Shown: positions 45,489 to 57,400 of the stretch, piece after piece
Position numbering within the stretch: position 1 is the stretch's first letter
How the letters are laid out: each line of letters starts with the position of its first letter
The notes under the pieces: model-generated
The model's input: only the letters and a program-made list of their open reading frames with translations
Told to the model about the DNA's origin: nothing
The model's database searches: none
NCBI GenBank assembly: GCA_902728285.1
Contig: CACVBU010000050.1
Location: 1-64,000 of the forward strand
From: Clytia hemisphaerica
Taxonomy: Eukaryota > Cnidaria > Hydrozoa > Leptothecata > Clytiidae
Direction: 5' to 3'
Length of the DNA stretch: 64,000 bases
Position numbers and translations under genes: made by a program

Positions 45489-48400
45489 GTAAGTTGAAGT
45501 ATTCAATTTTCATTTTGTTTTAGTCAAACATTTGGTAATTTTTTGTAATGTTACAAGAAAATTGATTTGCAGAAGCAAAAAAATAAATTGAATAAATTAA
45601 ATATTGTCTGCTCTAACTTGGTGCTTGGGACGATTGGTCAAAACATGGAATTGTTGATATCTGGTCTGTATTTTCACTTACTGTTAAATCTCTTTGACAA
45701 CAAATTTGTTTTGATAACTCCACCAAGTTTATCAATCATACTTTCTGTCAAAACATGTGCGTGAGTCAGTGTAGCTGGAACCTCGATATTCCAGGATTAG
45801 AAAAAGCTATACCTGTTATCTTTTTTCTTTAAAGAATCAACAAGCTATCAACATCAATAAATTACACACATTTACTCAGAGAAACTTTTAAAATTATCTG
45901 CCATTATGACTTTCTTGAAGCCGTTCTGAAATGAACCAATCGGGTTATGAATCGGAATTCCTATGGGAGTTCTTTTCCGAAATTTGTAAAATAGCTGAGT
46001 CGGCAAAAAAACTTTTCCCGGGGGTTTGAGGGAAAAACAGAACTGCTGTCATTTGTTTTTTATTTAACCAGATATTTAAATTTGGGCTCAAAATTTTTTA
46101 AATATATAAGTTAATAGTATTCAATATATTATTTGTATCTATCAGAAAATAAAACACTTACAGAACGACATCGTTTATCATATGGAATACCCCCGTATTT
46201 GGACCATTCTATGGTGGGCGCAAAGTAGGGCGGAAACTAAGAAGCACCCTCAGTGCAAGATTGCCGCCTCATCTTTATTCGCCCGCGCGAGAATGCGAGC
46301 TAATCATTTTTTTCTCGCGCGCTCAAGGGGAAAAGGAAAGTGATCGATATTCTTTGAAGGAAAAACGTCAGAAACAAACCCAAAGACCAAAAGATGTATT
46401 TTGTTGTTGACAATCGATCATGTGAAGATGAAAAAATTTCTGCTTTGCGTTTTTTTCGGAACGCTGAAAAACTCTAATTTCGATCATCCTTTAAGATAAA
46501 GAGGTTGCGAGATTTGGGTTAGCGAGGCAAAAATCGCTAAAAAGCTGGTAAAATCGTAATCCTCAAAAATCGAGGTTCCAGCTTCACTGTGAGTGACGTC
46601 AAACGCAACTGAACTGGTCAAACGTTCCATCGTTTTGCCACTAATTTGTTCTTCTTCGTTCCAGACACTTGCAGTTAGGGAAGCCATCCAGGATCCTGCC
46701 ATTTCTATCAGCCAGCTCTAAAGCTCTAAGGCTTAGAAGGACTAAGGGGTCTTCGACAAAAAACTTTCGAATTTTTCTTCAGATTCCTTCCCTCCCTAGC
46801 CTGGAGATCCATGCTATGATTCCCTATTCTATATACTGATGGCGAAATATATAGCATGGTATGGGCTGACAGTTAGAATTTCCCATATCCTAATCACGGT
46901 TGAAAACACAGCCAATCAAATCCTGTTATTGTTTCACTAGTCACACTTTCTTAAAGAAAGCGCAAGTTCCGAAATTTGGTTTTTATTTTAGTAAGTGAGG
47001 ACAGTGCTAAATTCGAATTTCCCACTGTAATTTTTTTGAGGCCAAAATCGGACTCACAGCTCTGACCCGTCAAGTCGCAACCTTAATTTTAAAAAGGCCT
47101 AAGTCCACTTACCCCTCAATTTTAAAAAGGCCTAAGTCCACTTACTCCTCAATTTTAAAAAGGCCTAAGTCCACTTACCCCTCAATTTTAAAGAGGCCTA
47201 AGTCCATTTTTACCAAAAATGAGTTTTTTGTATTTTCTGTATCTATGAGTCACTAGCTTTCTTTTGATGTGTATAATGTAAAGATTTTATGCTTAAAAGG
47301 CCTTCAAATTTCTTGATGAAGGTTAGATAAAAAGTGTGTTTAATTTTAAAAAGGCCTAAGTCCATCTAATGTTTATAGATCATGGGCCTAAGTCCATTGC
47401 AAAAGAAAACTTTAATTTTAAAAAGGCCTAAGTCCATTTAATAGGCCTAAGTCCATGTTAAGATAAAGAGTAAAGGGCCTAAGTCCACTCAAAGGGCCTA
47501 AGTCCACTCAAAGGATCTAGTCCACTCAAAGGATCTAGTCCACATTAAAAGGATCTAAATGGATCAAAATAATTTTGTATGGCAGGTTTTCAGTTGTCAA
47601 TGTTTTTTTGGTCAATTTCTATGGTATGTTATTGTATATTCTCAAGGTTTGTGTTTTTTTTACGATCTATTGCATTATCAATTTTGTTTGAAGCTTAGGG
47701 AAGCTTATAAAAGGTTTTGTTTGAAGTTCGCAGGGCCGATCAATCATTTATTGCCATACCTGCTCTTGTAATCGGTCCGCATTTTACTTTTATCAAAATG
47801 TAGACAGTGCCTTACAAGATTCGAATTCGAATCTTTTCATATTTTTCGAATGTTTTTCGTTCCATCGAAAAAATATTTTGCCGCTTTTTTGTTTTTTCAA
47901 ACAAAAACGAAATAAAATGGCGAAGGACAGATTCAAACTTTTAAGTAAAGAAGAGCGATTTATTTCATATCAGTGCTTCATCTGGAATAGTATGACCTTC
48001 TCTGGCAATTTTGGGAAAATAATCCTCGAGCTATTATCCAAAATGTGCCTAAAAGTCATACAATTACAACACTAATTTTATCTGTATTTATTGAGTCCAG
48101 CTAGCTTTAAAGTCAGATTCTAATTATGGAAAATTTTCAGTATTACCTCCATTGAAAGTTTTTTCTCTTTTAGTTGAAAAAGTAAAATGGGAACTAGAAG
48201 TTGGAAGGAAAATTTGGAAAGGTTTAGTGTAGGGCAAGCTGTGTTTGTGAGTGCTGGATATTTTGACAGTGGGGGAAGTGAAGACAAGAACAAGTACAGT
48301 GATTTTTTTGAATTCAAAGAGAAGACTCTTTTGGAAGGAATTATCCTTTCCGTGCATAGATCGTCAGTAAGAGTTAAATTCAAGATTGACGACTCAACTT

Positions 48401-54400: not shown

Positions 54401-57400
54401 TAAAAATGTGAAAAATGGACTTAGGCCTTTTTAAAACTCACCTCTTTTGGACTTAGGCCTTTTTAAAACTCACCTCTTTTGGACTTAGGCCTTTTTAAAA
54501 TTAAATGGCTTTGGACTTAGGCCTTTTTAAAATTAAATGGCTATGGACTTAGGCCTTTTTAAAATTAAGGTTGCGAAGTATTCATGGCCATTCATCAGAT
54601 TTTAAAAATATATGCAGATGGGTTCCTGTCTACTCCCTCCCTTGCTCTTATCGGCCAAAATTTTTCAAAACCAACTTTTACATCTTCGAAAAATACAATT
54701 TTCTCCAATCTTGTCCGCCATCGCCTTCCCACCCGTCATCGTTGAATTTTTGTTGCAACATTTCGAAGGAAAAGGCAGCGCGCTGGCCAATGAAAAAAGG
54801 AGTCTTTTATCAAAGCTAGTTCAAAACTGTACTTTTAAATTTGCGAATTTGCGCGCAAAGGTGAAAGCAAGTGAAATCATATGCTTTCAGTGGAGTTTGT
54901 GGACGAAATCAGAAAGAAATTGGCTGAAAGGATTTTCGTCTCGATACTTGTTTTTTTATCGGTATGTAGTTGGACACCCCACCCCCTTATCGGCCCAATG
55001 CCGATAAAAAAATTCGAAAGTTTTTTGTCGAAGATCCCTAAAACAGCATCTAATAACATGAAAACCAGAAAATGATTCTTTGATGGGAATCAAAACTATA
55101 AAGTGCACTTACAAACATCAGTATGTCGGATCTAACAAAATTAATAACGGCACTGTCATCATTGACAATAAAACAAAGGATTTTCTGTCATTCCAACAAC
55201 TTCTATCGAAATGATCTGTCACAGCTGAGTCTACCATTTTTAACACGATCCGAGGATTGAGCCGAGAACTCTCGCAGAACGCTTGCAGAACGCTTGCAGA
55301 ATGCCTGCAAGCTCCGCGCGGGTGAAAAATTTAATCTGTCAATCAACTTCTCAAGCGAAGAGTACGCGAAGCGATTCTAGCTTTACGATATTATTCAATT
55401 ATCATTATCCCTTTATTTTCATTCCTAGAACTTTTGCAAAGAAAAGGAAAAATAGAAAAGTTGTATTTTTTACTGCTCTATTCACATACTGAATTTGAAA
55501 GATCTTCTATGTGGCGTTTTTTTGCAAACTTAAAAAAACTGATTTTTGTCCCGTCTTTGCGGGACTTTGGCTTAAGTGCTTTTGTGCAGCATAGGGTACA
55601 AAGTCCAAATATGCGTTTCCCGTAATTTTTGTATGAAGAGTTAGGTCCATACTGAATGACACTTGTAAACCTAAGTTTCTTACCATTTTCCATTGAAACC
55701 AGACCCTCTGGCGTTAAAAAAAGGATACAGATGGAAAGTGTGTTATTTGGTTCAATTGGCTCAGTCTATCAAATCTCTCAGTTTAGTTGACACTTTGATA
55801 TCTTTTTTGCATCACAGCAAAAGGTTTGTTTTTATTTTAGTTTGTATCTTTGAAAGACCCCATCGGATTTAGGCAAGGCTGTCGGATTTAGGACCACTCA
55901 CGGTAATCTGTTATCGGAAAGTAATTTCCCGATTTACATTTCAAATTTGGCATTGAGAAAAAACTAAAATACGGTGGCGGAGCGGCACAAACTTTGGGTT
56001 ATCGAACTGATCGAACCGCAACCCATTGATCGAACTTAATCGAACACTCACAATTTTGTTAAAAATCTTAGAGTTTGATTTAATTTTTTTAATCAAACTT
56101 TAATCGTTCGATGGAGTTTGCTTAGTTTGATTGTTCGATTGGTTCGACAAGTTCGATTGATTGGGTCTGATATAAGAATATCTTGTGTGCTTAATTATAT
56201 TTGACTTTGAGATCTTCATTGAAGATGAAGAAGTAGAAAGATAAAAAATGTTCTGGTTAATTTTGTTTAAATAGGTGCGTTCTATCATTGTTAAAAGTTG
56301 GATAAATTTCTACCAAGGCATAATTTTTTACAGCCAATTAAAGGCACAGTCTGCTTATACTTACTATGTTTGCTATATCGTCTAGGCAAAAAACAGTTAA
56401 GAAAGACGTAAACGTAATTTTTTTATGATTGTGGTTATGATTTTTTTTATTACAGCCACGTACATGAACTCCCCAAATGTTCCTAACTGACTTGCGTGTG
56501 TTCCACTACAGATTTTTTCATATTTTGATTAAAAAGCCTAATCAGTGCAAAATCGAATTCATGTACTTTATAATTTCCAGTTCCCATTGACTCAAATTAA
56601 TGACTTTGGTGGTTCGGTGAAATGGCGGCTGAATTGCCATCCCATGATTTGTGAGATAGTCCCAAGTTAGAGCAGTTGACGGTAGACATCAATTTGACAA
56701 TAGACCTTTTGCTAGTTAGGATGTCATATTGAATAATTTTAAAACTCCAGACATGACAGAACAATGACACATCATTATAATGCATAATTATTACCGTGAG
56801 ATTGGGTAACTTGCATCATTGAAGGCTAACATGCATAGCCCTCAAATCAGGGATTTTTCCAAGCTCCAAGCAATGCCTCCGTTTGTACTTTCAAATTGAG
56901 TTTTTAAAGGCGTAAGCCGCGATATCAGAGGCTGGGGGCACCTTGAGCCCCCTGTGGGTCCAGGGCTAGCCCTGGTGGGGGGTTCAGAAAGCTGAGCATA
57001 TTTTTGTCTTAACTAGCACTTTAAAACGGTTAAAATCGAATGAATTTATAGAATTTATCAATGAACTCAATTTGAATTGAGTTTAATGCCACCGTCTAAC
57101 GGGGGCATTTGGGTGCTTAGAAAAAACACTGCAAATGAATGACCTGTCTGGTCATTAAAATATAAAGTTAAATCCAAACAAACCTGATTGACAAAATTTG
57201 CGGGTTGTAAAATATATATCTCATAATCATAAGTGATGACGCATAATTAAGGTTAATATCATCATTAAATTTGAGATTACACGTCCAGCAGCCAACAAGA
57301 AACATCTGAATTCCCGCCATCTTTTAAAATTTATGATCTTGTATGATTTTTTATTATCCAACCACACTGTTTTATTACCCGCGATTCTGTCACGGAGTAA

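Follow-up and report, generated by a model that had tools for sequence, protein, structure and literature searches.

A Clytia hemisphaerica DNA transposon with defined ends and a DUF7869 protein as its very likely transposase

Among DNA transposons with terminal inverted repeats (TIRs), those of the Sola superfamily are characterized, in the accessible part of PMC10741241, by a DDD transposase, 4-bp duplications, a size of mostly 2-9 kb, and TIRs of 11-1124 bp. Dictyostelid elements of the Sola2 type generate AT-rich AWWT duplications of 4 bp, and one of them encodes an 888-aa (amino acid) transposase, as described in the accessible part of PMC3627910. Here, a 64-kb stretch of the Clytia hemisphaerica genome (positions 1 to 64,000 of contig CACVBU010000050.1, hereafter the window) was analysed, in which an element of 7,500 bp (47076-54575) harbors a gene whose product contains DUF7869, a domain of unknown function (Pfam PF25273). 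With high confidence, we regard this element as a complete cut-and-paste DNA transposon (TIR, class II) that is probably autonomous and has the DUF7869 protein as its transposase.

The ends of the element could be defined to the base. Positions 47075-47107 and 54544-54576 are 100% complementary over 33 bp, of which 32 bp form the element's own end and the 33rd is a T/A common to the flanks. The tetranucleotide AAGT is found at both borders (47072-47075 and 54576-54579), the chance of a 4-bp flank match at the base composition of the window being 0.0057 per element. Both ends are followed inwards by arrays of short motifs. CCTAAGTCC occurs 12 times on the plus strand and 9 times on the minus strand of the window, for an expectation of 0.11 per strand in 64 kb (mononucleotide estimate), and 21 of the 21 occurrences lie within the element: the 10 on the left share one orientation, and on the right 9 are mirrored and 2 are not. 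In the left 925 bp, GGCCTAAGTCCA is found 10 times in one orientation and never in the other, the corresponding counts for the right 675 bp being 2 and 8. The first-pass annotation of this DNA had proposed a complete transposon with exact ends flanked by an AAGT duplication; the coordinates of its perfect 32-bp inverted ends were confirmed, as was AAGT on both sides. These terminal features are as follows.

47072..47075, no strand: left target site duplication AAGT, single in two host-repeat copies that lack the insertion
47076..47107, plus strand: left TIR, 32 bp, starting 5'-CGCAACC, complementary to the right end and found in other copies
47076..47560, plus strand: left subterminal array, 10 exact GGCCTAAGTCCA in one orientation
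54003..54575, minus strand: right subterminal array, 8 exact TGGACTTAGGCC and 2 GGCCTAAGTCCA in the other orientation
54544..54575, minus strand: right TIR, 32 bp, ending GGTTGCG-3', found in other copies
54576..54579, no strand: right target site duplication AAGT, on the same basis as the left one

The same ends were found elsewhere in the element's own genome (417 Mb, 951 contigs). Using the first 225 bp as a query, at least 53 matches were obtained (40 of 100 candidates scored), and 20 regions were fetched and scanned for the 32-bp end, allowing at most 4 mismatches. Both ends were recovered in nine of these regions (L009, L011-L017, and L019), each with a perfect 4-bp duplication of its own (AAAT, ACAT, AATT, CAAT, AGTA, AGTT, AATT, GTTT, and ATGT). 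The search for such copies, called for by the first-pass annotation, has thus yielded nine further insertions rather than none. Eight remaining regions contained one end, or no end that could be paired; L018 is probably the same site as L017, whose flank it carries in reverse, and L010 consists mostly of N. The nine copies are 3.1-5.3 kb long and enclose other internal sequences, tandem repeats included. They are about 82-92% identical to the window element over the outer 300-650 bp, and up to 96-98% identical among themselves over long stretches. Comparing the protein with each of the nine revealed no transposase match, and these copies are gene-less derivatives. Looser ends gave two more pairs, L023 (AATA) and L024 (TAGT), in a search that listed only pairs with agreeing 4 bp, so that neither is an independent test of the duplication; L023, whose ends are sister to those of the window family, contains the remnant of a related DUF7869 gene. 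At another locus, L026 (C507:34881-35451), a family end is followed by a long tandem run of a 32-bp subterminal unit, in more copies than in the window, and the subterminal array seems, from this locus, able to expand.

Several insertions could be compared with their empty target sites, a comparison that the first-pass annotation had proposed for the COG6 insertion and that was possible within the same genome for six insertions, the window's included. When the flanks of the window element were joined with one AAGT removed, 40 of the 40 scored host-repeat copies (586 candidates) crossed the junction at 87-90% identity. AAGT occurs once in the two copies aligned, L063 and L064, the right flank of the window being some 10 bases longer than L063 just past AAGT. 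A pooled query of twelve joined flanks, for which 40 of 2665 candidates were scored, gave scored rows for 4 of the 12 sites only, with 4 rows crossing the junction for L014, 11 for L015, 10 for L016, and 26 for L019; of the other eight sites, just that of the window was queried alone. One copy each was aligned for L014, L015, and L016, with the target present once, and the pre-insertion copy of L019 has diverged at the target, with ATAT where the insertion has ATGT. Altogether, seven pre-insertion copies representing six insertions were fetched and aligned, and the 4 bp occur once for five of the six. Since the target is single in pre-insertion copies, the 4 bp were duplicated upon insertion.

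Between its ends, the element carries one sizeable gene, the only two other open stretches of at least 110 residues being 116 and 128 residues long. Once the 11 GT..AG introns are removed, the twelve predicted exons form a frame of 954 codons that is free of internal stops and closed by a single terminal one, which agrees with the full gene announced by the first-pass annotation. The encoded protein matches PF25273 over residues 691-821 (E 1.2e-8) with 35.2 bits for a cut-off of 26, and its initial recognition as a DUF7869 protein was therefore upheld. Upstream of the core are four tandem units of 174/175 bp (window 49504-50200), each contributing a single exon of 63 nt, all four in identical phase, so that expansion of the repeat adds 21-residue repeats to the protein. 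At two related loci, L021 and L027, a different repeat (KPSTVEPAAD) was observed upstream of the core. The coding exons, all on the plus strand and all predicted from the joined frame, are listed below.

48187..48463, plus strand: coding exon 1 (MGTRSWK...), with a homologous stretch in L021 (51% over 90 aa)
48605..48646, plus strand: coding exon 2
48760..48834, plus strand: coding exon 3
49014..49073, plus strand: coding exon 4
49209..49238, plus strand: coding exon 5
49336..49392, plus strand: coding exon 6
49566..49628, plus strand: coding exon 7, 63-nt repeat exon, the first of the four
49741..49803, plus strand: coding exon 8, 63-nt repeat exon
49915..49977, plus strand: coding exon 9, 63-nt repeat exon
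50089..50151, plus strand: coding exon 10, 63-nt repeat exon
50432..52386, plus strand: coding exon 11, carrying a basic region, a cluster of Cys, and the DUF7869 core, to which D657, D733, D774, and E781 (numbered in the 954-aa protein) belong
52608..52724, plus strand: coding exon 12, with the stop

A homologous gene is found inside a second, divergent family, hereafter designated as family D and represented by L040 on contig C97, whose protein is 32% identical to that of the window over the aligned region. In this element of 6,189 bp, the inverted ends begin with CGCCGTGTCAATTCAAGACAGACTTAAGTCCA and are perfect over at least 39 bp, the duplication is ATAT, and an 832-residue open stretch homologous to the window protein is enclosed. 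GACTTAAGTCCA and similar motifs, which are related to the subterminal motifs of the window, are repeated near its ends. The target of D is a repeat: among 24 matches to its joined flanks, 13 cross the junction at 90% identity or above and 9 more at 70-74%, the remaining 2 being the two halves at C97 itself. The query used was two bases shorter than the computed join, its full-length matches measuring 200 bases like the correct join, and L069, a pre-insertion copy aligned with the correct flanks, fits a 4-bp duplication. Near-identical copies on C672 and C548 are probably located at other sites, because no half matches were found there. Open stretches of 831-837 residues are present in L038, L039, and L040, which differ at about 1% of positions or less and speak for recent movement more strongly than the window copy does. 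All insertions considered (the window element, the nine copies, L023, L024, D, and L025), perfect 4-bp duplications flank 13 of 14, L025 being off by one base. Among these 13 duplications, A comes first in 10 and T last in 11, 8 conform to ANNT, and 4 to strict AWWT.

DUF7869 relatives are numerous in this genome. The core of the window protein gave 42 matches (73 of 73 candidates scored), and PF25273 gave 49. The nearest relative of the window copy, on C781, is about 87-90% alike at the DNA level and broken by stops. Several groups of close copies were recognized, including L030/L031 (98%), L033/L034/L036/L037/L041 (about 92-98%), and L038/L039/L040 (99%, with L042 at 91%), as well as the pairs L035/L058, L045/L048, L046/L050, L051/L054, and L052/L057. 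L034 and L041, of the same DUF7869 family, lie on C473 some 6.6 kb apart in opposite orientation. Within the 1.5-kb flanks of other DUF7869 loci, inverted ends were limited to weak pairs at 4 loci of one family. A further family, B (L021 and L027), has a left end only, since the right end of L027 was absent from 2 kb more.

Six of six aligned members matched PF25273 (best E 9.1e-11), with their loci above the cut-off. The best PF25273 loci of the genome reach 117 bits, versus 35.2 for the window protein, which therefore represents a side branch of the DUF7869 family. Pieces found on C635, C212, C599, C342, and C735 match PF25273 far better than the window protein does, and these loci probably represent a different, multi-exon DUF7869 branch. 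In the six members, D392, D468, and D509 of exon 11 (corresponding to D657, D733, and D774 of the protein) are invariant, together with Q-N-x-N past the second D, G-H ahead of the third, and the H of DxxH. In a wider alignment of 13 rows, of uneven completeness and partly from the same family, the first D is conserved wherever a residue is aligned at its position (11 of 11 rows), 12 of 13 rows keep the second D and 12 of 13 the third, and the acidic position of IEK is mostly occupied by E or D. In L051 (C633), the second and third conserved D are replaced in the alignment, a copy that may be decayed or possibly altered in function. Between the window and L030, change at the third codon position amounts to 0.625, versus 0.312 and 0.238 at the other two, and by this third-position excess the protein is conserved between families.

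Outside this genome, PF25273 was found in 0 of 14 control genomes. No prokaryotic relative was identified among 97 pattern-matching stretches of genome contigs, and no viral one among 47 pattern-matching viral stretches, the patterns used being narrow enough for distant relatives still to be possible in both; tblastn with a single query returned no plasmid relative, distant ones again being possible. The only NCBIfam match was a weak one to a sigma-factor model, far below cut-off. Beyond PF25273, Pfam gave the six members only scattered hits, each confined to one member and under the 0.1 level of significance.

Inverted repeats, a duplication of fixed length at independent sites, and empty target sites are the attributes of TIR (class II) elements, and all three are present here. 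The DUF7869 protein is very probably the transposase, given that homologous genes lie within the ends of two families at 32% identity, that it is encoded by the only sizeable gene found, and that its D residues are invariant. In the mechanism that we propose, D657, D733, and D774, with E781 nearby, would lie in an RNase-H-like fold, where the three D, or two D and E781, would bind metal ions. Such a fold is suggested by the order of the motifs and by a crude propensity plot, where D657 falls within a short predicted helix flanked by strands, D733 directly follows a strand, and D774 is part of a loop leading into a helix; the strand and helix order of DDE transposases, as presented in the accessible part of PMC5718144, is compatible with the hydrophobic stretches seen here. 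After binding to the GGCCTAAGTCCA/CCTAAGTCC arrays and to the CGC ends, the protein would cut the element out and insert it, preferably into A..T targets, where the two strands would be cut with a stagger of 4 bp; host repair would then duplicate the 4 bp. It could also mobilize in trans the gene-less copies sharing its 32-bp ends. Activity of the window copy itself is possible.

A number of observations weigh against this interpretation. The transposase function of the DUF7869 protein is assigned by association, no match to a solved structure was obtained, and the crude propensity plot gave no clean RNase-H match. The splicing of the 12 exons is a prediction from sequence, and the core search found no second intact copy of the window subfamily. 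The gene-less copies are only about 82-92% like the outer DNA of the window element, which is perhaps not their source. As for the duplications, L025 has both ends but is flanked by TATT and TATC, and the border of D can be drawn in two ways one base apart, giving either CGC ends and ATAT or TCGC(C) ends and TATA.

The superfamily to which the transposon belongs is a separate question. The first-pass annotation had left it unassigned and possibly new, a status that is not established, since Sola agrees in the length of the duplication, in element size, in the range of its TIRs, and, to judge from the three invariant D, probably in being of the DDD type. Compatible with its being a transposon, the element would then be a new family of Sola (Sola1, Sola2, or Sola3) and not a new superfamily, and we lean towards this view. 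Its three invariant D, 4-bp duplication, length of 7.5 kb, 32-bp TIR, and 954-aa protein are Sola-like, and its A..T target preference resembles the AWWT of Sola2-type elements. The strict AWWT form is restricted to 4 of the 13 duplications, however, and Sola was compared by described features, not by sequence. The DDD type is itself deduced from three D invariant in 6 of 6 members, with E781 as an alternative candidate for a catalytic residue. There is a smaller, though appreciable, chance that DUF7869 defines a superfamily of its own outside Sola, with CGC ends, AAGTCC-type subterminal arrays, 4-bp A..T duplications, and a D-D-D transposase.

Assignment to another superfamily known for 4-bp duplications, namely Ginger, CMC/Chapaev, Kolobok, or piggyBac, is improbable. 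Duplication length alone would suit all four, but TTAA, the target required by Kolobok and piggyBac, was found in 0 of 13 duplications, and both were rejected. No integrase or other named Pfam transposase model matched the six members, which is the sole test bearing on CMC/Chapaev. Ginger was set aside as its Gypsy-like integrase has no Pfam match here and the 32-bp TIR of the window element is too short for the 40-270 bp stated for Ginger in the accessible part of PMC10741241. Dada elements, with 6-7 bp duplications in small RNA genes, were also rejected, the duplication being 4 bp here and that of the window lying in an intronic repeat. Zisupton/KDZ elements produce duplications of 8 bp; they were discarded given the 4-bp duplications observed and the absence of the KDZ model from the Pfam matches.

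Still less probable is a passenger role for the DUF7869 protein, with another enzyme moving the ends in trans. The nine other same-ended copies lack the gene, and movement in trans seems to occur; yet the DUF7869 gene is the only sizeable one found in the element, a homologue sits inside a second family with ends of its own, and acidic residues are invariant. That a host gene was captured between chance inverted repeats, as its introns and its position in a host gene's intron might suggest, is contradicted by the recurrence of these ends at nine further sites, every one with a separate duplication, and by the empty sites, and can practically be dismissed. The DUF7869 protein as transposase of a cut-and-paste element thus remains our preferred reading.

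The host gene is COG6. Positions 45387-45488 (MAEQSQ...LDNDK, then gtaagt) are, by resemblance, what we take to be COG6 exon 1, and a COG6_N exon occurs downstream of the element at 58450-58593. The element lies between these two exons and on the same strand as COG6, which places the insertion in COG6 intron 1, as initially annotated; the insertion site itself is an abundant intronic repeat. Elsewhere in the window (5326-7999), open stretches in separate frames resemble, by eye, a Gypsy-type LTR (long terminal repeat) reverse transcriptase/RNase H and an integrase.

Literature searches returned no paper naming DUF7869 or PF25273, subscription papers and Repbase being mostly outside their reach, so that the family may be catalogued elsewhere; searches on core motifs such as DNCSGQN or GQNKN gave only titles on unrelated subjects. 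DUF7869 gains here a concrete role, at least in this branch, as a transposon-borne domain with defined ends and 4-bp duplications, and gene models containing it should be screened as transposons instead of being assumed to be host genes. Were these proteins found to belong to Sola, a Pfam family that has no annotation would become attached to a known superfamily; if not, they would represent a new one. In the event of a superfamily of its own, uncharacterized DUF7869 homologues would be transposases or genes domesticated from them.

Compared with known systems, the protein belongs with PF25273, which 6 of 6 members match and to which Pfam gives no function. A C/DxxH motif is reported, in the accessible parts of PMC9587614 and PMC3706591, for the transposases of hAT, P, MuDR, Kolobok, and Dada. 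The present protein shares with them a DxxH (DTAH) past its second D and differs in having the acidic E781 only seven residues past the D of DxxH. Dada and Kolobok differ further by their 6-7 bp and TTAA duplications, respectively, versus 4-bp duplications other than TTAA here. With Sola, as far as described in the sources cited above, the present family has in common 4-bp duplications (AT-rich in the Sola2-type elements), a putative DDD type, and element and TIR sizes within range, and differs in the low proportion of strict AWWT targets (4 of 13). Judging from this match of features, Sola or a sister of Sola is the most likely affiliation of the DUF7869 transposons, the alternative being a group not yet named.

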